From the IMG/VR virus record IMGVR_UViG_3300049482_000116, positions 1 to 64,000 of that record: a stretch of DNA of 64,000 nucleotides. The stretch is one strand, 5' to 3'. This document shows positions 1-62,353 of this stretch, piece by piece. Under the pieces are notes generated by a model, which worked only from the letters and a program-made list of their open reading frames with translations, had not been told where the DNA came from and ran no database searches. Within the stretch, counting starts at the first letter, position 1. The number at the start of each line of letters is the position of its first letter. The DNA is from a virus. Position numbers and translations under genes: made by a program.

Positions 1-266
1 CCAGGGTTCTTAGCCTCGTACTTAACCCCTCCGTTCAGACGAGAATCCTTACGAAGCCAGTTGCTCTGAAGACCGCTCACGTAGCTCTTAAGCTCAGAGT
101 CATCGTACGTTCGCTCACACTCGATAGTCTCAGCGCGAAACCCCTCGAACAGGATGGCGTTGACCTGAGCTCGCTGTTCCTTACTAGGTGTATACGAACC
201 ATCATCGTTAGCCGAGCATACATTCGTGACCGCTGCGAACACTGCATTCTTTTGATTCATCTTCAT
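1..266 (-). CDS. Hypothetical phage protein, N-terminal part (cut by window edge)
   Basis: The reverse strand is open for 88 codons from an ATG at 266, preceded by a good ribosome site (AGGAGAT, about 6 nt upstream), to base 1 with no stop, so the gene continues outside the window. The product begins MKMNQKNAVFAAV; a second ATG two codons in is an alternative start. It contains the stretch SNWLRKDSRLNGG. I recall similar short soluble proteins in other phage genomes, without a known function. It lies in the same direction as the 33-codon gene at 307-408, and their leaders are almost identical (ACGAGGAGAT followed by AGATATGAAG or GATATGAAG). Function unknown. Confidence 0.75.
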   Translation of the reverse strand, partial: MKMNQKNAVFAAVTNVCSANDDGSYTPSKEQRAQVNAILFEGFRAETIECERTYDDSELKSYVSGLQSNWLRKDSRLNGGVKYEAKNP

Positions 267-630: not shown

Positions 631-750
631 ATGTTAAATAAAATCGCAACCATCACAGGCTACATTGTTCTCGGCACTATAACCTTAATTGGTCTACTAA
701 TTACTACACTCCTCATCTTCGGAGGCTCAAATCCATTTGGTTTCTGCTAA
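631..750 (+). CDS. Single-span membrane micro-protein, 39 aa
   Basis: Start ATG 631 was chosen because it sits 6 nt after a GTATAAA box. The frame is open upstream to 451, but that part overlaps the inverted-repeat cluster and the promoter element. The product starts MLNKIATITGYIVLG and consists mostly of one hydrophobic helix (about residues 5-30), followed by a short tail GGSNPFGFC. It is predicted to sit in the inner membrane. There is no Shine-Dalgarno site. The gene ends at TAA 748-750, where copy 2 of the repeated upstream element begins. Function unknown; a small membrane protein acting early on the host is one possibility. Confidence 0.55.
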   Translation: MLNKIATITGYIVLGTITLIGLLITTLLIFGGSNPFGFC

Positions 751-796
751 TAGGTTAACTCGGGTACCTTGTACCCAATCTGGGTATAAATATAAA
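748..796 (+). promoter_or_regulatory. Repeated upstream element, copy 2
   Basis: This unit is aligned with copy 1: TAATAGG, ACTC, then the dyad GGGTAC-CTT-GTACCC (762-776), then GTATAAATA at 784-792, with ATG at 797. Relative to copy 1 the stem has A-T replaced by G-C on both arms, so pairing is kept while the bases change. The GTATAAA box again ends 6 nt before the ATG. Confidence 0.6.
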
Positions 797-925
797 ATGC
801 AATTATCAGTTTTACTGAGCACTCATCCCACATGGAAACTCATAACCTTACTTGCGCAGCTCAATATAATTAAAGGCGTTACCTTTCATAAGGCCTATAA
901 ATCCGCTGCCCGCCGTTTCTATTAA
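797..925 (+). CDS. LxxLL-family micro-protein, 42 aa
   Basis: ATG 797 follows a GTATAAA box by 6 nt, and there is no ribosome site. The product starts MQLSVLLSTHPTWK and carries the decamer LITLLAQLNI followed by a basic tail rich in K and R. The decamer matches the signature L-x-x-[LVF]-[LFM]-x-x-L-x-[IVL] found in most small proteins of the 0.8-4.8 kb region. The next gene starts 2 nt after the stop, implying co-translation. I do not recognise a known family; the helix could mediate protein or nucleic-acid contacts. Confidence 0.55.
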   Translation: MQLSVLLSTHPTWKLITLLAQLNIIKGVTFHKAYKSAARRFY

Positions 926-927
926 TT

Positions 928-1134
928 ATGGAAAAATACCAACACTACATTCGCTACTACTTCTTTAGCGGCTCACATAGGCGACTAATCGAATACAATA
1001 TTCCGATGCCTCACCACACTACCCTAGTACAATCTCATTATATTTTAAAATCGTACACAGCACTTCATATGCTCCTAATAAAACTTGGCATCACTCGCAC
1101 CCACGATGGCAACTTCTTCGGATCTTTATTTTAA
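928..1134 (+). CDS. LxxLL-family micro-protein, 68 aa
   Basis: The gene starts 2 nt after the previous stop (TAA TT ATG) without its own ribosome site. The product begins MEKYQHYIRYYFFSG, and near the C-terminus it carries LHMLLIKLGI followed by TRTHDG, the clearest form of the shared LxxLLxxLGI signature. The N-terminal half is rich in aromatic residues and His. The TAA stop is followed directly by TAG, where copy 3 of the repeated upstream element begins. Function unknown. Confidence 0.55.
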   Translation: MEKYQHYIRYYFFSGSHRRLIEYNIPMPHHTTLVQSHYILKSYTALHMLLIKLGITRTHDGNFFGSLF

Positions 1135-1183
1135 TAGGTTTACTTAGGTACCAGTACATTTGTATAATTTTATATATAAAATT
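1132..1183 (+). promoter_or_regulatory. Repeated upstream element, copy 3
   Basis: TAATAGG, ACTT and AGGTACCAGTAC (1146-1157) align with copies 1 and 2, but the outer base pairs of the hairpin are lost (GTACAT instead of GTACCT). A GTATAAT box lies at 1162-1168 and the ATG is at 1184, a gap of 15 nt. This copy therefore probably gives a short leader instead of a leaderless message. Confidence 0.5.
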
Positions 1184-1516
1184 ATGAAAACTGTCAACAA
1201 CCCCTCTACCCTTCAGATGCGCCGCGCCAAACAACAATGGCTTTTCAACTATATGCAACATCTTATAGATGTTGGCGCATATACTGGCAAATACGTAAAA
1301 CTTCCCGGCGAAGATCCCATAGCTCACTGCTTGATAACAAGACCGGTTGACCTCACTAATAACAGTGCATACTACGGCGAAGGTTGGATATCACCCGAGC
1401 ACCGGGAACTGCTGTACGTGCTGCACCGCTTGCTAAGGCCCAGCGATTACCCGTTGAGACCTACGGTAGATGAAGAAGATGAAGGCGCACCAACCTTCAC
1501 ACCGTGGTTTACGTAG
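1184..1516 (+). CDS. Small acidic-tailed protein with two LxxLL-like segments, 110 aa
   Basis: ATG 1184 is preferred over the in-frame TTG at 1160, which lies inside the promoter element. The product starts MKTVNNPSTLQMRR. Two segments resemble the shared helix: LFNYMQHLID near residues 20-30 and LLYVLHRLLR in the second half. The C-terminus is an acidic, proline-containing linker-like tail (VDEEDEGAPT). The gene ends at TAG, and the next gene's ATG follows immediately in the same frame, so reading through one amber codon would fuse the two. Function unknown. Confidence 0.55.
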   Translation: MKTVNNPSTLQMRRAKQQWLFNYMQHLIDVGAYTGKYVKLPGEDPIAHCLITRPVDLTNNSAYYGEGWISPEHRELLYVLHRLLRPSDYPLRPTVDEEDEGAPTFTPWFT

Positions 1517-1768
1517 ATGTCAAAGATCGAGAACATCGCACCGCCCTCACCGCCCGAAGATAATATATCGATAGCCCAACAACTGCAGAACAGTACAGTC
1601 ACAATGTCGCTGTATGGCGAATTCTCGATCTATCACATACGTTTGCTCTCGGTGCTACACCAGTTGGGTATACACAGTGCAGCGGTGCGGTTACAACGAG
1701 ACCCACATCATTACTTGTTATATGGTGAGTTGGTGGTACTTAGTCCAAAGAGTAATATTAAGGTTTAG
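1517..1768 (+). CDS. LxxLL-family small protein, 83 aa
   Basis: The gene begins directly after the TAG of the preceding gene, in the same frame, and has no recognisable ribosome site. The N-terminus is a Pro/Glu linker-like stretch (APPSPPEDN). The signature LLSVLHQLGI lies in the middle, followed by residues likely to form strands (YLLYGELVVLS). It ends at TAG. It may be made by termination-reinitiation or by amber suppression (see the CUA tRNA at 62280). Function unknown. Confidence 0.55.
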   Translation: MSKIENIAPPSPPEDNISIAQQLQNSTVTMSLYGEFSIYHIRLLSVLHQLGIHSAAVRLQRDPHHYLLYGELVVLSPKSNIKV

Positions 1769-1770
1769 AT

Positions 1771-2034
1771 ATGTTTGATGCGATGGAAGACGAGATAAAG
1801 ATAAAGCCGTTGTTGAAGCTTGTTATACTGTTTGGGAAGCTTCGCTTGGCCGGGTTGGCAGAGAGGCGATTATCTGTCGTGGACATGATGACAGCGGGGC
1901 CGGGTTTTCATGACAACCGTCAGTACTGTGTTTCTTTAACGAGAAGAATGGGAACGCTGGAGATGGAGTACGTGGTTATGGTGCCGTGGAAGCAGCGTGC
2001 CTCTAGGTTCAATCACTTGTATTATCGAAGTTAA
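1771..2034 (+). CDS. LxxLL-like small protein, 87 aa
   Basis: The start is 2 nt after the previous stop, with a weak ribosome site (AAGG) 10 nt upstream. The product begins MFDAMEDEIKIKPLL, and the helix segment LVILFGKLRL follows at about residues 18-27. The second half is basic and contains a probable strand (EMEYVVMVPW). The last genes before it have the same arrangement of helix followed by strands. Function unknown. Confidence 0.5.
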   Translation: MFDAMEDEIKIKPLLKLVILFGKLRLAGLAERRLSVVDMMTAGPGFHDNRQYCVSLTRRMGTLEMEYVVMVPWKQRASRFNHLYYRS

Positions 2035-2063
2035 TAACATAGTGTAAAGAATAATTCCGACTC

Positions 2064-2085
2064 AGGCGGGAGGGGGCCTTTTAGC
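2064..2085 (+). terminator. Weak candidate terminator
   Basis: A short dyad AGGC...GCCT (2064-2067 and 2076-2079) encloses a G-rich loop and is followed by TTTTAGCTTTT. It lies in the 55-nt gap between two genes. The stem is only 4 bp, so this is a tentative call. Confidence 0.25.
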
Positions 2086-2089
2086 TTTT

Positions 2090-2311
2090 ATGAAAACAGT
2101 GATATGCTATGTAGACTTCACTCATCGTGGGCCAGACACCCTAGCTAGAACGGCTAGGTTCGCTAAACTCTGTCGCTTGTTCATGCTGCTAGGGGTTTGG
2201 GATAAGACTGAGTGGCGCGACCTTGAAGGAAGAGTAGGAATATATAAGTTTGCGATAGATTGGGATCACCAACAAGAACTACTTCGCGCTAGAAAGACGG
2301 TTGGCGGGTAA
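2090..2311 (+). CDS. LxxLL-family small protein, 73 aa
   Basis: Start ATG 2090 has no close ribosome site; a G-rich stretch lies about 15 nt upstream. The product begins MKTVICYVDFTHRG. The segment LCRLFMLLGV followed by WDKTEW matches the shared signature. After it come a probable strand (GIYKFAIDW) and a second charged helix ending RARKTVGG. The family layout of helix, strand, helix is clearest here and in the 83-aa protein at 1517. Function unknown. Confidence 0.5.
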   Translation: MKTVICYVDFTHRGPDTLARTARFAKLCRLFMLLGVWDKTEWRDLEGRVGIYKFAIDWDHQQELLRARKTVGG

Positions 2312-2323
2312 AATACCACTACC

Positions 2324-2833
2324 ATGAATATGACGATTAAAATGGAAAACTCAAATATATATTATTACACGTCTGGCGGAGAGGTTGTTCTATTAGAGCT
2401 AGAGAAGTTCTTAGAGATTATTACTAAGCAACATGTTACAGAGTCTCCATCACAAAGTTATATTTACAACACTGGGTTTCCTGCGCTAGTTGGACCAGGG
2501 GCAGTTGAAGACAGCACTATCACAGCTGCTTCATATAGCTATAAAACCATAAAACTAGGGAACGAGCTGACAAGACTGAATATATTGTGCGATCTGCTAG
2601 ATTGCTGTACCCCGTTCGAAGCAGTAGGCGAATCCTTTGAAGAAAAGCTAGAACATACCTCTGTTGAATCTCTTATGAACTTTGGTGAGCCAAGATATCT
2701 AGTTAAACTTACAGATACACTTTATGGACTCTTTTGTAAAGATGAAGTTCAGCGCTTGGTTTCAAGTTCAGGTGGTTCGGCATTGATCTGTACAAACCCA
2801 GGCCGCAACTTTATCTTTGCTCACGGTAAATGA
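2324..2833 (+). CDS. Hypothetical protein, 169 aa, with LxxLL-like helix
   Basis: This is the largest of the left-arm small genes. ATG 2324 starts MNMTIKMENSNIYYY; in-frame ATGs at codons 3 and 6 are alternatives. The N-terminal half is mixed alpha/beta, with a long Ser/Tyr-rich loop. A helix LNILCDLLDC in the middle resembles the shared signature, and the C-terminal half has a cysteine-containing segment (YGLFCKDEVQRLV). It ends at TGA, and the next ATG follows one base later. No known domain is recognised. Confidence 0.6.
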   Translation: MNMTIKMENSNIYYYTSGGEVVLLELEKFLEIITKQHVTESPSQSYIYNTGFPALVGPGAVEDSTITAASYSYKTIKLGNELTRLNILCDLLDCCTPFEAVGESFEEKLEHTSVESLMNFGEPRYLVKLTDTLYGLFCKDEVQRLVSSSGGSALICTNPGRNFIFAHGK

Positions 2834-2834
2834 T

Positions 2835-3059
2835 ATGTATGAAACACGTGGAAGAGTAAACAGTTGTGGTCACTGTATAAATGGATCCAGCGATCTTTTC
2901 CTAATTAAACCAGGTGTTAGTGACTACAATATAAAATTAGGTAAAAGGAATAGGTGGGTTCGTAAACGATCTGCTAAAGTAGATAGGTCATTTCTAACTG
3001 ATAGTGAAAAAAGTGTATACATATATACTAAGCGAAATGTAGATGGACTTCGCAGATGA
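2835..3059 (+). CDS. Small basic protein with CGHC motif, 74 aa
   Basis: ATG 2835 lies just after the previous TGA and starts MYETRGRVNSCGHC. A further ATG-like start lies 18 nt upstream inside the previous gene but is less likely. The protein has a CGHC pair near residues 11-14 and many Arg/Lys residues (RNRWVRKRSAK), which suggests nucleic-acid contact. This is inference only. The next gene overlaps its stop codon by 4 nt (ATGA). It lacks the LxxLL helix of its neighbours. Confidence 0.5.
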   Translation: MYETRGRVNSCGHCINGSSDLFLIKPGVSDYNIKLGKRNRWVRKRSAKVDRSFLTDSEKSVYIYTKRNVDGLRR

Positions 3060-3223
3060 GCGGTCATACAAAAGGCTTAGCAACCATGTTAGAGACCAAC
3101 AAGGTTATGATTCCTATATGGAATCTGCTTATCATTCTTTGTAGACTGGATATAAAGAGTGCAAGGACTTTTAGCGAAAAGCAAATAATAGACTATGCAT
3201 ACAGGAGACTATATCACTCGTGA
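3056..3223 (+). CDS. LxxLL-family micro-protein, 55 aa
   Basis: The gene overlaps the previous stop by an ATGA junction, a strong sign of translational coupling. The product begins MSGHTKGLATMLE. It carries LLIILCRLDI followed by KSARTF, one of the best matches to the shared signature, and then a charged helix (EKQIIDYAYRR). The following gene starts at a GTG overlapping its TGA. Function unknown. Confidence 0.55.
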   Translation: MSGHTKGLATMLETNKVMIPIWNLLIILCRLDIKSARTFSEKQIIDYAYRRLYHS

Positions 3224-3384
3224 TATGTTTTGACGCAAGCCGTAAGGCACAGCTTATAGTGTTCATGTACACATTGCTAGGCAAAAAGCAACCCACCTTT
3301 CCTCAAGGTTATACAGCCTTTATGGTATACGAAGGCATTCAAGGAACATATGTGTATGATCGCGGTTGGCAAAGGTTGTTGTAG
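3220..3384 (+). CDS. Micro-protein, 54 aa, LxxLL-like (GTG start)
   Basis: The GTG at 3220 overlaps the TGA of the preceding gene, and the frame is open for 54 codons to TAG. The product starts (M)ICFDASRKAQ and has the helix LIVFMYTLLG followed by a strand-rich part (YTAFMVYEG). The TAG stop overlaps the GTATAAT box of the next gene. That gene is in the same frame, four codons beyond the stop. Function unknown. Confidence 0.45.
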   Translation: MICFDASRKAQLIVFMYTLLGKKQPTFPQGYTAFMVYEGIQGTYVYDRGWQRLL

Positions 3385-3390
3385 TATAAT
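3384..3390 (+). promoter_or_regulatory. GTATAAT box (leaderless start of PagL-like gene)
   Basis: GTATAAT ends 6 nt before ATG 3397. There is no -35 box and no ribosome site in between. The predicted transcript begins at the start codon. Confidence 0.55.
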
Positions 3391-3396
3391 CTGTTA

Positions 3397-3882
3397 ATGA
3401 AAAAATATATACTTGCTTTTATCACATTGTTTGCCTCTTTAAATGTTAATGCAAGCTCGTTCAGTAAATACGGCATAGGTGTATTTAATACTGCTGACTA
3501 TGGTACAGCCTCTACAAAGGTTTTTTCTTTAGGTTATGTAGGAGAGTTGTTTGGACCTTTTATCAATCAGGTTGAATTAGGTCTATTTGCTGATAGTTCT
3601 GGACATGATCGCAAGAGTTCAGGTTTCGGGTTTTACTCAATCGGTACCGAAGTTAATCCCGGGTACTTAGTTATCAGGTCCCTTTGGGGCGTCGGGATGA
3701 TTACTTCGCCTGATTCTATGCTCGGGGGGAACTTTCAGTTCACTCAGGACTTGCTGATTGGCGTTCGGGACAACAAGAAGAACATGATCGGGTTGGTTTA
3801 TAAACACATCAGCAGTGCTGGATTAGAGCTCCCGAATAAAGGTCGGGACTTTTTAACTATTCAGGTAGAGATACCGTGGTGA
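3397..3882 (+). CDS. Exported PagL-like outer-membrane protein (putative lipid A 3-O-deacylase)
   Basis: The 161-aa product has a clear signal peptide: MKK, a hydrophobic core, and cleavage likely after Ala19 in NVNA-SS. The mature part shows alternating hydrophobic residues typical of a small beta-barrel and ends in an aromatic residue (W161), as outer-membrane proteins do. Near the C-terminus, H137-x-S139-x-A-G is followed by PNxG and D151. In PagL lipid A 3-O-deacylases the catalytic residues are His, Ser two residues later, and Glu fourteen residues after the His. Here the spacing is kept, but Asp replaces Glu. If active, it would alter host LPS during infection, perhaps to exclude other phages or aid release. 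The gene has its own GTATAAT box and no ribosome site. It could instead be a non-enzymatic barrel. Confidence 0.5.
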   Translation: MKKYILAFITLFASLNVNASSFSKYGIGVFNTADYGTASTKVFSLGYVGELFGPFINQVELGLFADSSGHDRKSSGFGFYSIGTEVNPGYLVIRSLWGVGMITSPDSMLGGNFQFTQDLLIGVRDNKKNMIGLVYKHISSAGLELPNKGRDFLTIQVEIPW

Positions 3883-3896
3883 GAAACTCCTAATAT

Positions 3897-4106
3897 TTAG
3901 GTATACATATCTCTTTCTATAGCTGATACTAGTTTTTTTATTGAAAACGACATCTCAACGCTAGACATATACATCTCTAACTTAAAGATTTTTACGAAAC
4001 CTAGTTTACGCATCAATTTAAGGATATTCGCGGCTGCCTGTATATGGTCTTCCGAAGATAGATTCCAACAACTCTTCGGTATCAGAGATTCCTTTTCTTG
4101 ACTCAT
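3897..4106 (-). CDS. LxxLL-family small protein, 69 aa
   Basis: This is the last gene of the leftward micro-operon. The product starts MSQEKESLIPKSCW and carries ILKLMRKLGF, matching the shared signature, followed by strand-like and helical parts (MSFSIKKLVSAIER). Its first 89 nt overlap the 3' end of the upstream gene (4018-4305) in another frame. It ends 14 nt from the PagL-like gene, facing it; CCTAA-TAT-TTAGG between them is a weak dyad. Function unknown. Confidence 0.5.
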   Translation of the reverse strand: MSQEKESLIPKSCWNLSSEDHIQAAANILKLMRKLGFVKIFKLEMYMSSVEMSFSIKKLVSAIERDMYT

Positions 4107-4305
4107 AACCTAGTTTCCTTAAGCCATATACATAAGATGAGTGTACAGCAACATTGCCACAACTTAATACTTCCACTTTTGGACTAGTGGCTATGGTTTC
4201 GACCTTAACTATACCTATAACACTCAACCTTCTTAGGAGGTTAAAAAGCTTGTACGTTGCAGTTATCTGGTCCACAGAAAGTCGGACATAGTGTTTACTT
4301 ACCAT
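4018..4305 (-). CDS. LxxLL-family small protein, 95 aa
   Basis: ATG 4305 overlaps the stop of the preceding gene by 7 nt. The product begins MVSKHYVRLSVDQ and contains LFNLLRRLSV near residues 20-29, then several short strands. Its last 30 residues are read from DNA that also encodes the start of the next gene in another frame. That C-terminus may therefore be a late extension. Function unknown. Confidence 0.5.
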   Translation of the reverse strand: MVSKHYVRLSVDQITATYKLFNLLRRLSVIGIVKVETIATSPKVEVLSCGNVAVHSSYVYGLRKLGYESRKGISDTEELLESIFGRPYTGSREYP

Positions 4306-4466
4306 GCTTTACTGCTGTAATGTTGGCGAAGCATTATAGTACTATTGATAGCGCCAATAGTGGACTTAATTCCAAGATCTAGAAGTAAGAAAAACAGATA
4401 TACTCTGGCCTTCATCTGCGCCTCTGTGAGTTTATCTGGCTTTTTAAGTTCTATAATACCTGTCAT
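4299..4466 (-). CDS. LxxLL-family micro-protein, 55 aa
   Basis: ATG 4466 (MTGIIELKKPDK) overlaps the TAA of the upstream gene in a TAATG junction. This favours it over the in-frame ATG 15 nt further upstream. The product carries LFFLLLDLGI followed by KSTIGA, one of the strongest matches to the shared signature, compare KSARTF at 3056-3223. Coupled translation with both neighbours is likely. Function unknown. Confidence 0.55.
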   Translation of the reverse strand: MTGIIELKKPDKLTEAQMKARVYLFFLLLDLGIKSTIGAINSTIMLRQHYSSKAW

Positions 4467-4606
4467 TATTTTAGTATACAAGATCTATATTGATAATGTT
4501 CAGCAAGAAGTCTTTGTAGAAGTGATTTTAATTCTATACGGTAATAAAGAGCTATAAGTTCTTTACGTTGAAGCTCTACGTCGATCTTATCGATTGGACG
4601 TTCCAT
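4466..4606 (-). CDS. LxxLL-family micro-protein, 46 aa
   Basis: ATG 4606 is preceded by the purine-rich ribosome site AAAAGGGAAG. The product begins MERPIDKIDVELQRK and contains LKSLLQRLLA in a charged amphipathic helix. It ends in a TAATG junction with the next gene. At 46 residues it is little more than one helix with a short basic tail. Function unknown. Confidence 0.5.
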   Translation of the reverse strand: MERPIDKIDVELQRKELIALYYRIELKSLLQRLLAEHYQYRSCILK

Positions 4607-4670
4607 ATGACTTCCCTTTTGTTGGGTAAGTTACTTAAGTGTAACTAAGTCTATTTTAGCAGGAACTGAG

Positions 4671-4814
4671 CTAGTAGTCGGTATCTTTTAAGGTATTTGA
4701 GCAAAATAAACTTATATCTTTCGATAAGAGTTTTCTTAGCAACATATATAAGTACCATCTAGCAAGATCTTGTTTGTATTTGTTGACTATACGGTAGGCT
4801 ATTTTTTGTCCCAT
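4671..4814 (-). CDS. LxxLL-family micro-protein, 47 aa, overlapping upstream gene
   Basis: ATG 4814 lies inside the last codons of the upstream four-cysteine gene, with AAGGAT 7 nt before it. The product begins MGQKIAYRIVNK and contains LYMLLRKLLS after a Trp-Tyr pair. It ends at TAG. The 64 nt between this gene and the next hold nothing I can identify. Support comes from the ribosome site, the operon position and the shared signature. Function unknown. Confidence 0.45.
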   Translation of the reverse strand: MGQKIAYRIVNKYKQDLARWYLYMLLRKLLSKDISLFCSNTLKDTDY

Positions 4815-5050
4815 TTATAATCCTTTTTGATGTCTTCTATTTCAAGTTCATCATCGATCAGATAGTGATGAGCTAACACATCTTGAGCCATCTTTAGTCT
4901 CTGTGGCTGACTCGGAGGAATAGGATTTAGAAACTCCGGTAGACATATGGCCCTAAAGGGACACTTAGCACATCGCTTAGAGTCAAGACATTGACCATCG
5001 CTCTGCACAATCTCTTCAAGTACGTCTTTATCAGTTTGACTTAAGGCCAT
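4799..5050 (-). CDS. Four-cysteine small protein, 83 aa
   Basis: The product starts MALSQTDKDVLEEI. Four cysteines (CLDSKRCAKC, then PFRAIC) form a C-x5-C-x2-C-x5-C pattern compatible with a zinc or iron-sulfur site. The C-terminus is a charged helix. It is a paralogue of the gene just upstream: both have a helix ending EEI or EKII, then the cysteine knuckle with the sequence CAKCP. Its ATG overlaps the upstream stop (TAATG). Function unknown; small metal-binding proteins in phages are often regulators, but that is only a possibility. Confidence 0.6.
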   Translation of the reverse strand: MALSQTDKDVLEEIVQSDGQCLDSKRCAKCPFRAICLPEFLNPIPPSQPQRLKMAQDVLAHHYLIDDELEIEDIKKDYKWDKK

Positions 5051-5313
5051 TATTTACTCCTAATGATCTCATCGATCACTAGATCTGCTAACTTTTCCTG
5101 AGCGGCCTTTTTATAACGAGCATCAGCCTCTTCTTCTTTAAGTCCATCTATGCTTAAAGATTCTACACAGCTCATATATTCACCATTTTTATCCCTCGTT
5201 GACCTTCCAAGTGGACATTTAGCACAAATACTGGGTTTTGACCAAGTACAGCTACCTTCCTCTTGTATAATCTTCTCAAGTATAGACACGCTGTCCATTG
5301 AATCGGGATTCAT
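5050..5313 (-). CDS. Four-cysteine small protein, 87 aa, first gene of leftward operon
   Basis: The product begins MNPDSMDSVSILEK. The cysteines are arranged C-x7-C-x2-C-PLG, with a fourth Cys about 17 residues later (YMSCVESL). It is similar to the 83-aa protein downstream, especially at EEGSC and ICAKCP. It heads a seven-gene leftward operon that continues through the LxxLL micro-genes to 3897, and a GTATAAT box lies just upstream at 5329-5323. A metal-binding role is inferred from cysteine spacing only. Confidence 0.6.
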   Translation of the reverse strand: MNPDSMDSVSILEKIIQEEGSCTWSKPSICAKCPLGRSTRDKNGEYMSCVESLSIDGLKEEEADARYKKAAQEKLADLVIDEIIRSK

Positions 5314-5386: not shown

Positions 5387-6196
5387 ATGGCAATGGATAA
5401 ACCAGGTCAAGTCTACCCGCCACCAGCGCAGTCGATTACCTCTACTCAGTCACCGATGCCGATTTATCTACCTGATCCAAGTATTAAGGGGGTAAGCTTC
5501 GATCAACTGCTTAATCAACGTGGTATCCGCTTCATACATTCTAAAGCTGTTCCTTGCCCAAATATTCTCACTGTCGACAACAACGCACATAACCCCGATT
5601 GTGAATTTTGTGACGATTCAGGAATACTTAGTTACGGCGAAACAGAGATGCGAGGAGTTTTTTCTGGAAATTCTATAGAAAAAACCTTTGAGGCTCACGG
5701 TGTATGGGAAGTTGGAACTGCGGTTGTTACTTTTCCAACCGAGGACGCTGAGGGTAACCAGGTTGACTTTAATACTTACGATCGCTTAATTATGCCTGAT
5801 TTCACTGTGCGCATGTGGGAGATGAAGGAATACGAGCCTAGAACTGGTGGAACCCAAGAGCTAAGATATCCTATCCAAAAGGTAGAGTATGCTAGCTCCA
5901 TTAGAAACGGTGTACAGAAATTCTATACACAGGGAACTGATTTCAATATCAATACTGAAGGACAGATCGTCTGGATACCCGGACAAGAGCCTTTCTATGA
6001 CGCTAGCAGCGATCATGGAGAAGTCATAATCTGGTCATTTTATGCTCATCCAGTTTATGTTGTAGTCCAATCTCTACGTGAACTCAGGATTACTCAGGAA
6101 TTCGTTAATGGACAAAAGGTAGCACGTCGTTTGCCACAGCAAGTACTAGTACGCCGGGACTTCATGATTGGATCTGAAAAACTTGCAACTCCATGA
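5387..6196 (+). CDS. Putative neck or head-tail connector protein, 269 aa
   Basis: ATG 5387 follows the site TAGGAG. The product starts MAMDKPGQVYPPPAQ and has a proline-rich N-terminus. Around residues 57-80 is a cysteine/histidine knuckle (VPCPN, then HNPDCEFCDDSG) followed by a beta-rich body. C-x-N...H-N-x-D-C-x2-C-x3-G knuckles occur in phage head-tail connection proteins that I recall. Its place ahead of the tail sheath also fits a neck role. This is inference from context; a baseplate or decoration role is not excluded. Confidence 0.5.
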   Translation: MAMDKPGQVYPPPAQSITSTQSPMPIYLPDPSIKGVSFDQLLNQRGIRFIHSKAVPCPNILTVDNNAHNPDCEFCDDSGILSYGETEMRGVFSGNSIEKTFEAHGVWEVGTAVVTFPTEDAEGNQVDFNTYDRLIMPDFTVRMWEMKEYEPRTGGTQELRYPIQKVEYASSIRNGVQKFYTQGTDFNINTEGQIVWIPGQEPFYDASSDHGEVIIWSFYAHPVYVVVQSLRELRITQEFVNGQKVARRLPQQVLVRRDFMIGSEKLATP

Positions 6197-6214
6197 GGTT
6201 AACCTTGAACTTAA

Positions 6215-10018: not shown

Positions 10019-12223
10019 ATGGCAATTAATGTAAGCTTTAATGGTGCAACCATTTACAAACCAGGCGCTTACTCTAGGACTACGATTGATCTTGGCGGTG
10101 GATTTCCACTTAGCCCAACAGGAATCATCGCAATCTTTGGAGAGTCTGAAGCTGGCGCACCAGGCGCTAACGAAACAAACATCGCTAACAACGTGTTTAG
10201 TCCAGAACAAATTCCACAGATTAAACAGAAATATCGTAGCGGACCTCTAGTCGACGCATGTAATTTCTTGTTTGCTCCAGGTTCTGACGGAGCAATTCCA
10301 GGCGGAGCACAGGCTGTTTATATTTACAAGACCAACGCTTCGTTGCGTGCATCGTTAGCTCTAGCTAATACTTGGGGAACAGCGCGTGCTCTTGAGTGGG
10401 GACAAGGCGGAAATAAGTTAACGCTTAAGAATGTTTTAGTTCCAGCTACCTCTGCTGTCCGCGCTTCGTCTACTCCATTTGATGTGAGTGCTGACGTTGC
10501 AGGTAATACATTGGTAATTCGTGTGAACGGCGGAGCAACTGAAACGTTTACAGCTCCAGCTGCAACTACAACTCGTGCTCTACTTCAAACAGCTCTAAAT
10601 ACCGGAGCAAACTGGGCATCAGCTGTTGTTCCTGCTGGAATGTCGTTTGTTGTTTCTGGTGCACTTGAGACTGCTGCAGTAGTTACTCTTACGAGATCTG
10701 CTGCCTCTAATCCTCACCGCGAAGGTCATGGACGTAACTTTGAAATTGTAAGTGGATCTCTACTTGCTTCTGCAAATATCGGACCAGCCGGCCTTATTCA
10801 GTCTGCTTCTGAAGACATGGCAGTAATCACGACCTCAAACAAGCGCGATCTTGTCGATGAGTCTATTACTATAGGTGGCAATATTGCTGTACGTATAGGT
10901 CGTAACGGAGGTATTGCTCCAAACGTAACTATCTCTGCTACACAGATGATCCTTACGAACAACGCTGCTCCTGAACACACTCTTGTTCTTGCGGATTTTG
11001 CTACTCTTTCTCAGCTAGCTGCTTTTATCAACAGTTCAACTGGCGGTAACTGGACTTTGACTCTTAGCTCTACACTGTTTGGACAACTTTCTCCATCTGT
11101 GTTAGATCGTCAAACTGCTCTTGGTGCGTTAGGTTCAGCAACTGTTCTTCCTGCAACTATCAAGAGAGATGCTGTAGAAGTTCGCGATTTCTTTGCTCAG
11201 TCTTCTGCTATAGAACTTATTGCCGGCGCTAATGCTTATGCAGGTTTACTAGATGCTTCTGCTGAGACGTTCTTAACTGGTGGAGCTAAGGGTGCAACCT
11301 CTACTTCAGATATCACTTCTGCATTAAGCAAATTTGAGAAGTTCCGCGTCAACAGCGTGGTTCCTCTAATGAGCCGCGATGCTACTGAAGATGCTGCTGA
11401 TGGTCTCACTGACGTAGGTTCTAACTACACCATTGACGGTATTCATCAGGCTGTTAAGACTCATCTAAGCTTAATGGCAACCACAAAGCGTAGGAGCGAG
11501 CGTCAGGGTTATCTATCTTACAAGGCATCATATGATGACAGTAAGCAGAAAGCTCAAGACCTTGCAACCGCACGTGTACAGCTATCGATTCAAGATGTTC
11601 GCCAAACTGACAGTGATGGTGTTATCAAGTGGTTCCAGCCTTGGGCTGGTTCTTGCTTACTTGCTGGAGCTCGCGGCGGATCTCCGATCGGCCTACCTAT
11701 GACCGGTAAATACTTCAATATGTCTGGTATTCGCCATACCGGTCAGCCAATGGCTACTGCCGAAGCTGACATCGTAATTGACTTTGATCCAGATCTACAG
11801 TATGATGATGCAATCCAGAATGGTCTTACCTTCTGGGAAGCTCCTCAAACTGGTGGATTCCGACTAGTTGTTGATAATACAACTTACGGACGTGATGGAA
11901 ATTGGGTATTCAACCGCGGTAACGTTTTATACGCTGCTGACGTTCTTGCTTTCGACTTCCGCTCACAGCTTGAAAACATCTATGTAGGTGTTAAGAACAC
12001 TATCAATGCTACAGAAGTTAAGAGTACTTGTGAGAGCATTCTTGCTACATACCTTGCTCAAGGCATTACAGTTTCGACTTCTGATGCTAAGAACGGCTTC
12101 AAGCAGCTAGTTGTTCAGATCAACGGTAATACTATCAACATCTCTGTTGTTGTGAAGCTTGTTGAAGGTATTGACTTCATTCTTGCTGATATCACCCTTC
12201 AGCGCGCTCAGTCTACTGCTTAA
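10019..12223 (+). CDS. Tail sheath protein, 734 aa
   Basis: The product forms the contractile sheath around the tail tube. The N-terminus (INVSFNGATIYKPGAYS) is of the sheath type, where the first strand and loop link neighbouring subunits. The C-terminal 150 residues show the conserved sheath domain, with DGNWVFNRGNVLYAAD and a final segment GIDFILADITLQ that forms the C-terminal arm. A large central insertion (about residues 150-420, Ala/Thr-rich) probably forms surface domains. The length fits large myoviruses. A hairpin terminator follows. Confidence 0.9.
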   Translation: MAINVSFNGATIYKPGAYSRTTIDLGGGFPLSPTGIIAIFGESEAGAPGANETNIANNVFSPEQIPQIKQKYRSGPLVDACNFLFAPGSDGAIPGGAQAVYIYKTNASLRASLALANTWGTARALEWGQGGNKLTLKNVLVPATSAVRASSTPFDVSADVAGNTLVIRVNGGATETFTAPAATTTRALLQTALNTGANWASAVVPAGMSFVVSGALETAAVVTLTRSAASNPHREGHGRNFEIVSGSLLASANIGPAGLIQSASEDMAVITTSNKRDLVDESITIGGNIAVRIGRNGGIAPNVTISATQMILTNNAAPEHTLVLADFATLSQLAAFINSSTGGNWTLTLSSTLFGQLSPSVLDRQTALGALGSATVLPATIKRDAVEVRDFFAQSSAIELIAGANAYAGLLDASAETFLTGGAKGATSTSDITSALSKFEKFRVNSVVPLMSRDATEDAADGLTDVGSNYTIDGIHQAVKTHLSLMATTKRRSERQGYLSYKASYDDSKQKAQDLATARVQLSIQDVRQTDSDGVIKWFQPWAGSCLLAGARGGSPIGLPMTGKYFNMSGIRHTGQPMATAEADIVIDFDPDLQYDDAIQNGLTFWEAPQTGGFRLVVDNTTYGRDGNWVFNRGNVLYAADVLAFDFRSQLENIYVGVKNTINATEVKSTCESILATYLAQGITVSTSDAKNGFKQLVVQINGNTINISVVVKLVEGIDFILADITLQRAQSTA

Positions 12224-62279: not shown

Positions 62280-62353
62280 GCACCCGTAGCTCAGTGGCTG
62301 AGCAGGCGTCTCTAAAACGCTGGACGTGGGTTCGATCCCCACCGGGTGCGCCA
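62280..62353 (+). tRNA. tRNA with anticodon CUA (amber suppressor type)
   Basis: The 74-nt cloverleaf is complete. Acceptor GCACCCG/CGGGTGC; D-arm GCTC-loop-GAGC; anticodon stem GGCGT/ACGCT with loop CTCTAAA; short variable loop GGAC; T-arm GTGGG-TTCGATC-CCCAC; discriminator G and encoded CCA. In the anticodon loop U33 is followed by CUA, which reads UAG. A class I tRNA with G73 is compatible with, for example, glutamine identity, but the amino acid cannot be fixed from sequence. UAG-reading tRNAs are known from some phages with altered stop-codon use. Confidence 0.85.

Follow-up and report, generated by a model that had tools for sequence, protein, structure and literature searches.

A short motif with genome-specific dialects, possibly a docking helix, in clustered small proteins of related contractile-tailed phages

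This study concerns a cluster of tiny, tightly overlapped open reading frames (ORFs) in a window of 64,000 bases, positions 1 to 64,000 of the 68,141-base IMG/VR virus record IMGVR_UViG_3300049482_000116, which carries the contractile-tail gene set of a myovirus, with the tail sheath at 10019-12223. Proteins of this cluster and of the corresponding clusters in related phages share a short motif, and each phage has its own dialect of it, such as LLxKLGIKSA, LGLIS..T, FLxFLxKTGNxAA, or LLxxLxVI, which is a new finding and the most telling result of the analysis. We give slightly better than even chances to the reading that the motif is a docking helix placed on unrelated protein bodies and recognized by one co-evolving partner in each phage.

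The motif and its dialects

The relatives, whose contigs bear L-numbers here (L003, L109, L186, etc.) and in several cases reach 146-177 kb, were fetched by two virion genes, the tail sheath and the gene at 5387-6196, and in them a variable small-ORF region is bounded by a conserved upstream gene on one side and the homologue of the 5387 gene on the other. An earlier note on the window had named similar clusters in relatives as a finding that would support it, and dozens of small motif ORFs indeed lie at the equivalent place. The motif is much clearer there than in the window, as in LLQLLYKLGIKSAR, LCYLLAKLGIRSAK, LKDLLFKLGIKSAE, LLEFLYKLGIKSAK, and many more, and it is sharply bounded, L(L)xLLxKLG(I)(K/R)SA, in 76 distinct proteins, with 0 in neighboring structural DNA. 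The information in these 76 proteins falls within some 14 positions, L-L-x-[LF]-L-x-[KD]-L-G-I-[KR]-S-A, and is near zero a few residues away, while the placement of the motif varies widely: it begins 4-96 residues from the start of the protein (median 22) and ends 1-85 from its end.

When each genome was searched, without bias towards a given pattern, for residue triples in excess, many genomes differed in their top pattern. The top triples were L..L..K and L...GI in L109, L.KL in L124, L.....KL in L130, L..L..K in L134, L..F...L and L..FL in L113, IS..T (from LGLIS..T) in L143, F......L.L in both L148 and L135, FL..T and K.GN in L186, and L....VI in L187, and structural control DNA gave nothing above 10^-6.2. 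The search does not speak for every phage, as it found no motif-like pattern in several other genomes, the window included; on the window alone it was nonsignificant, and the case rests on the relatives. In L186, a held-out contig fetched by a neighboring gene, the KLGI patterns gave no match, but FLxFLxKTGNxAA, a pattern written after its ORFs were inspected by eye and then tested, is found in 9 ORFs compared with 0.03 in shuffles and 0 in the control; a second contig from the same sample has the same dialect in another protein. In the L003/L109 and L010 genomes, members encoded away from the cluster also share its dialect.

The likeness of motif positions 9-14 is 3.08 within genomes versus 1.85 between them, above all 2,000 label permutations, and that of positions 1-8 is 12.9 versus 11.6. 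Flank identity, in a comparison that omitted pairs alike in their flanks at 25% or more, is 0.062 within and 0.061 between genomes (p 0.28). Codon agreement at identical motif residues is 0.252 versus 0.257 predicted from codon usage (5,105 comparisons), and because it does not exceed expectation, the dialects are not due to a recently duplicated or gene-converted motif. These values bear on the "rapidly diverging paralogous family" of the earlier note, which is right only in part, and on the possibility that a small folded domain was multiply duplicated, the motif being its conserved core with no docking involved. Iterated profile searches do link the members, and the families of the window ORFs at 4018 and 4299 weakly align over the helix (p 0.0014), but likeness outside the motif is at chance level, so that common descent of the whole proteins does not follow from these links. 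The flanks contain no common signal, some members stop 1-5 residues past the motif, the structure models diverge after the helix, and dialects with random codons are unexpected from recent duplication; we thus regard ordinary paralogues as a distinctly improbable explanation.

The earlier note had described the motif as a decamer, L-x-x-[LVF]-[LFM]-x-x-L-x-[IVL], occurring in at least thirteen small frames of the window. A shared motif is real, and larger than described there, but the strict pattern is present in only seven of the 18 cluster ORFs (737/797, 928, 1517, 1771, 2090, 4018, and 4299), and while six of the ten decamers quoted fit it, LLIILCRLDI, ILKLMRKLGF, LKSLLQRLLA, and LYMLLRKLLS violate it. 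Leucine-rich short ORFs could produce LxxLL-like decamers by composition alone, and the decamer by itself is indeed loose, with 17 more matches, most of them spurious, in other window ORFs. However, 20,000 composition-matched shuffles of the residues within cluster ORFs, proposed beforehand as a possible refutation, averaged 0.11 pattern ORFs and peaked at 3, against the seven seen, which places the decamer beyond chance. Likewise, the refined pattern [LF]..[LFIMV]L..[LI][GND][ILV] occurs in 164 of 1,995 cluster ORFs but in 6 of 2,836 ORFs from control DNA, the count in shuffled ORFs being 3.9, and an iterated profile at E<=0.01 matches 72 ORFs across 191 kb of cluster DNA, compared with 0 across 392 kb of structural DNA. 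These controls refute chance as an explanation, and the probability that we still assign to it is negligible.

Profile hidden Markov models, which the earlier note had suggested for a search of phage proteins, recovered related motif proteins across the relatives. The window-free profile, as we call the one made from 19 ORFs that all came from phages other than that of the window, recovered the window ORFs at 4299 (E 4.6e-5), 3056 (E 2.7e-4), and 1517 (E 0.002), and nothing below E 0.14 was found in control DNA more than three times as large. The 1517 ORF also gave E 8.6e-8 by a second profile, whose alignment contained the 1517 member, and the 3056 ORF reached E 3.1e-8 after iteration; an iterated search starting from the latter reaches 52 ORFs in 18 phages.

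Outside this phage group, a megablast of the window against phages gave no match, and no cultured phage of the group was found in INPHARED. The nearest cultured phage by tail sheath is Myxococcus phage Mx1, at 33% identity, in which a search for the motif gave no match. When 84,980 bacterial and archaeal genomes were scanned for LLxKLGIKSA, 28 of the 30 matches were single and scattered, i.e. at chance level, and the other two were stretches of a single phage contig that had been binned into a Cytophagales metagenome-assembled genome; for this reason no host is claimed.

Selection, structure, and a possible docking role

The codons of the motif are diverse, serine being encoded by both TCN and AGY and leucine by six codons, which indicates that selection acts on the protein. 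Between the window and L109, the proportion of nonsynonymous differences (pN) in orthologous cluster ORFs is lower than that of synonymous ones (pS). A DNA-level repeat, gene conversion, or a recombination hot-spot was ruled out as the cause by the mixed synonymous codons, and the cluster ORFs look like translated, selected proteins rather than a DNA repeat.

The common fold expected by the earlier note, a helix followed by a hairpin, was not shared by the two AlphaFold models. The 4299 family was modeled as a helix at 15-31 followed by another at 34-43, with a mean predicted local distance difference test score (pLDDT) of 67.5 that is highest around the motif, while in the model of the 4018 family (mean pLDDT 73) a helix at 11-26 leads into a beta-hairpin and then a further helix. 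The two models suggest, with moderate confidence, that the first helix recurs and the remainder differs. A Foldseek search of the PDB gave no match at E<=0.001, Pfam and PHROG searches with the window members and 55 relatives gave no consistent family, and the best hit of a PDB sequence search was a designed peptide (E 0.11, not significant). Resemblance to a helix-hairpin-helix and to L7/L12 was considered and dropped owing to mismatched spacing.

A short linear docking motif is expected to form a short island at variable positions, in unrelated contexts and with conservation at the protein level, and all of these properties are found here. The shared docking helix put forward in the earlier note is well supported by the island of 13-14 residues, by its variable position, and by dialects that are accompanied by no likeness in flanks or codons. 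In the mechanism that we propose, a short amphipathic helix with a glycine-type cap (LLxxLLxKLG-I-[KR]-S-A), borne by otherwise unrelated bodies, would plug into one common partner per phage, which might be a phage protein or a host protein that the phage meets. The variable bodies would supply different activities or address different host targets. If the partner shifts between phages, all helices of a phage would follow, and one dialect per genome would result. The proteins would probably be made early, from repeated strong and largely leaderless promoters, and early production would make a role in takeover or counter-defence the most likely.

A possible hub, suggested by conservation and co-occurrence, is the 83-residue four-cysteine protein encoded at 4799-5050 on the minus strand, which is found only in this phage group and adjoins the cluster in all 22 of the 22 phages with strong motif hits. 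It is nearly frozen, being 94% identical to its L109 counterpart with synonymous sites saturated, and a conserved four-cysteine paralogue of 87 residues is encoded next to it (5050-5313, minus strand). A private docking code, in which ten to twenty unrelated mini-proteins per phage, from the cluster and elsewhere, would use one helix for one co-evolving hub, perhaps the 4799-5050 protein, with hub and helices changing together, is a tentative proposal to which we give somewhat less than an even chance.

The main rival is mutual binding of the helices, by which the small proteins of one phage would form hetero-oligomers and a separate partner would be unnecessary. One dialect per genome would also be expected from such binding, the helix is amphipathic and leucine-rich, and one family was modeled as a helical hairpin. 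The conserved polar residues K7, K/R11, and S12, however, exceed the needs of a generic self-packing face, and several members are lone genes outside the cluster; we consider this rival unlikely. Next comes a head-packaging tag, in which the helix would direct the proteins to the head, from where they would be injected, like the capsid targeting sequence of the T4 internal proteins. This has a precedent in the 10-residue tag shared by small head proteins of T4 (PMC9026906), and virion genes adjoin the cluster. The T4 tag is, however, N-terminal and cleaved, whereas the present motif may lie anywhere, even in the last residues, and the promoters look to be set apart from the late genes, all of which makes a packaging tag improbable.

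Several points weigh against the docking reading. The partner, and with it docking, early timing, and purpose, is what we infer from the patterns above, and self-association would likewise yield dialects. The structure models are of middling confidence, and the members found in the window belong to the weaker part of the set. Expression of the cluster ORFs is predicted from sequence, and the co-occurrence of the 4799-5050 protein with the cluster is confounded by lineage, shared descent explaining it equally well.

Most small accessory genes of phages are without a known function, and a shared helix with dialects offers a handle on them, because finding one partner could explain dozens of small genes at once. 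The motif also allows short ORFs overlooked by gene callers to be found from their sequences. If docking to one partner is true, these phages would show an unusual design, in which numerous interchangeable effectors use a single socket, and would provide a natural experiment in the co-evolution of specificity.

Promoter-like elements and gene content of the cluster

Many cluster ORFs are preceded by a repeated, promoter-like GGTACC...TATAAT...ATG element. The window has three plus-strand copies of AATAGG...GGTACCnGTACC...TATAAATATAAAATG, each terminating at a start codon: the first, AATAGG..ACTCAGGTACCAGTACC..TATAAATATAAAATG, which recurs in relatives, at 582-633 (start codon 631), the second at 749-799 (start codon 797), and the third at 1133-1186 (start codon 1184). 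The element or close variants of it number 29 in 191 kb of cluster DNA, some of these matches being overlapping or imperfect, compared with four imperfect ones in 392 kb of structural DNA. Because the -10-like box lies so near the ATG, transcription from these elements is likely to give leaderless messages. Among 21 ORFs picked solely by the element, a test independent of the motif, 9 contain the decamer versus 0.16 expected. These repeated promoter-like, apparently leaderless starts may lend some help to the early takeover or anti-defence role suggested in the earlier note. About 70 bp of intergenic DNA before the first element (463-536) is strongly conserved, at 97% to L003 and 86% to L004 and L017, and is without a match in Rfam; an Rfam search of the cluster region found no RNA family.

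The arrangement described in the earlier note is present in the window: the ORFs lie at the coordinates it gave, plus-strand genes at 631-3882 face minus-strand genes at 3897-5313, and neighbors overlap through ATGA at 3056-3059, GTGA at 3220-3223, and TAATG at 4466. The plus-strand series begins, behind the first promoter-like element, with an ORF of 39 residues (631-750) that is hydrophobic and without the motif; its product is a probable membrane helix, and related ORFs occur in nine other phages. Two strict-pattern ORFs follow, one of 42 residues with LITLLAQLNI (797-925, the 737/797 of the list above), which has relatives in L109, L144, L113, and L120 and is weak by the window-free profile (E 0.61), and one of 68 residues with LHMLLIKLGI (928-1134, E 0.063). 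The third element precedes a 110-residue ORF with the degenerate helix LLYVLHRLLR (1184-1516), a doubtful member (E 3.5). The next is the strict-pattern ORF of 83 residues at 1517-1768, with LLSVLHQLGIHSAA. Two further ORFs have strict decamers: LVILFGKLRL in 87 residues (1771-2034), a doubtful member missed by the profile, and LCRLFMLLGV in 73 residues (2090-2311), with orthologues in L109 and L110 (pN 0.43 < pS 0.94). The 55-residue ORF at 3056-3223, with LLIILCRLDIKSAR, is a clear member, and the 54-residue ORF at 3220-3384, which starts with GTG and contains LIVFMYTLLGKK, is conserved (pN 0.26 < pS 0.70) and a doubtful one.

On the minus strand, iterated search groups the motif ORF of 69 residues at 3897-4106 (ILKLMRKLGF) with both the 4018 family and proteins bearing KLGIKSA. 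The strict-pattern ORF of 95 residues at 4018-4305, with LFNLLRRLSVIG, has orthologues in 18 phages (window-free profile E 1.5), and that of 55 residues at 4299-4466, with LFFLLLDLGIKST, has orthologues in about a dozen phages (YFLRDLGIKSA). The 46-residue ORF at 4466-4606 and the 47-residue ORF at 4671-4814 are conserved neighbors, present in 23 and 25 phages, respectively. Their membership in the motif family was not supported by profile-profile comparison (p 0.017 and 0.04, respectively), and the latter gave E 1.9 by the window-free profile.

At 3397-3882 on the plus strand lies a phage gene with a signal peptide-like start that matches the lipid A 3-O-deacylase PagL (Pfam PF09411, E 5.5e-9). 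Four of the related phages (L109, L134, L144, and L136) carry orthologues of it, that of L109 being 75% identical, and it suggests a Gram-negative host and phage-driven surface remodeling. In L109, which is closely related to the phage of the window, the small-ORF cluster includes a cytochrome c at 5882-6208 on the plus strand (Pfam Cytochrome_CBB3, E 9.9e-9, CxxCH), which corresponds to 3735-4061 of L003. The motif is joined to unusual sequences in two relatives: the protein at 918-1199 (plus strand) of L153, with LMSLLQKLSIKSAK, has a very acidic, cysteine-containing tail and is perhaps a DNA mimic joined to a docking helix, and at 1018-1485 (minus strand) of L157, LRNLLVNLGIKSARG is fused to a glycine-rich stretch resembling tail/collar proteins, in an ORF that overlaps a CYTH-like ORF and whose start codon is uncertain. 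A multi-copy family with a KDxRLNGGxxY signature, encoded at 1-261 (minus strand) in the window and at 5348-5833 of L152, 1227-1694 of L153, 896-1267 of L154, and 1683-2135 of L159, adjoins the motif cluster in almost every relative and also lies near motif ORFs elsewhere in the genomes; it has no Pfam match and weak similarity to phrog_408 (E 0.006). Finally, the tRNA at 62280-62353 (plus strand), with a CTA anticodon and called Pyl by ARAGORN, is probably an amber suppressor, even though TAG terminates several genes of the window.

Comparison with known systems

In searches of the open-access literature, we came across no account of a family of this kind. The eukaryotic LxxLL nuclear-receptor box has the same leucine spacing on an amphipathic helix, but the likeness is superficial: the present motif has the additional conserved K-L-G-I-[KR]-S-A and belongs to a bacterial virus, and no relation is claimed. 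The systems nearest in kind are the host-takeover module of SPO1, the internal proteins of T4, and the promoter-defined anti-defence genes of archaeal viruses.

The module of Bacillus phage SPO1 comprises 26 small early genes, one product of which, Gp53, docks on ClpC (PMC6873191). It resembles the present cluster in its many small ORFs, in the diverse sequences of its proteins, and in its dedicated strong promoters, which are here promoter-like by sequence only; unlike the proteins of the present phages, its members are not described, in the part of that source considered, as sharing a motif. The internal proteins of T4 carry a 10-residue capsid targeting sequence, which is N-terminal and processed (PMC9026906), and thus, as here, one short motif is found on otherwise different small phage proteins. 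The present motif differs from it in its free position, in its many more members, and in its genome-specific dialects. In archaeal viruses, early anti-defence genes are each preceded by their own copy of a single conserved early regulatory sequence (PMC11065993), and the present cluster is similar in that many genes each follow a shared regulatory element. The shared feature described in the accessible part of that account is in the DNA only, whereas the proteins of the present phages also share a predicted helix.

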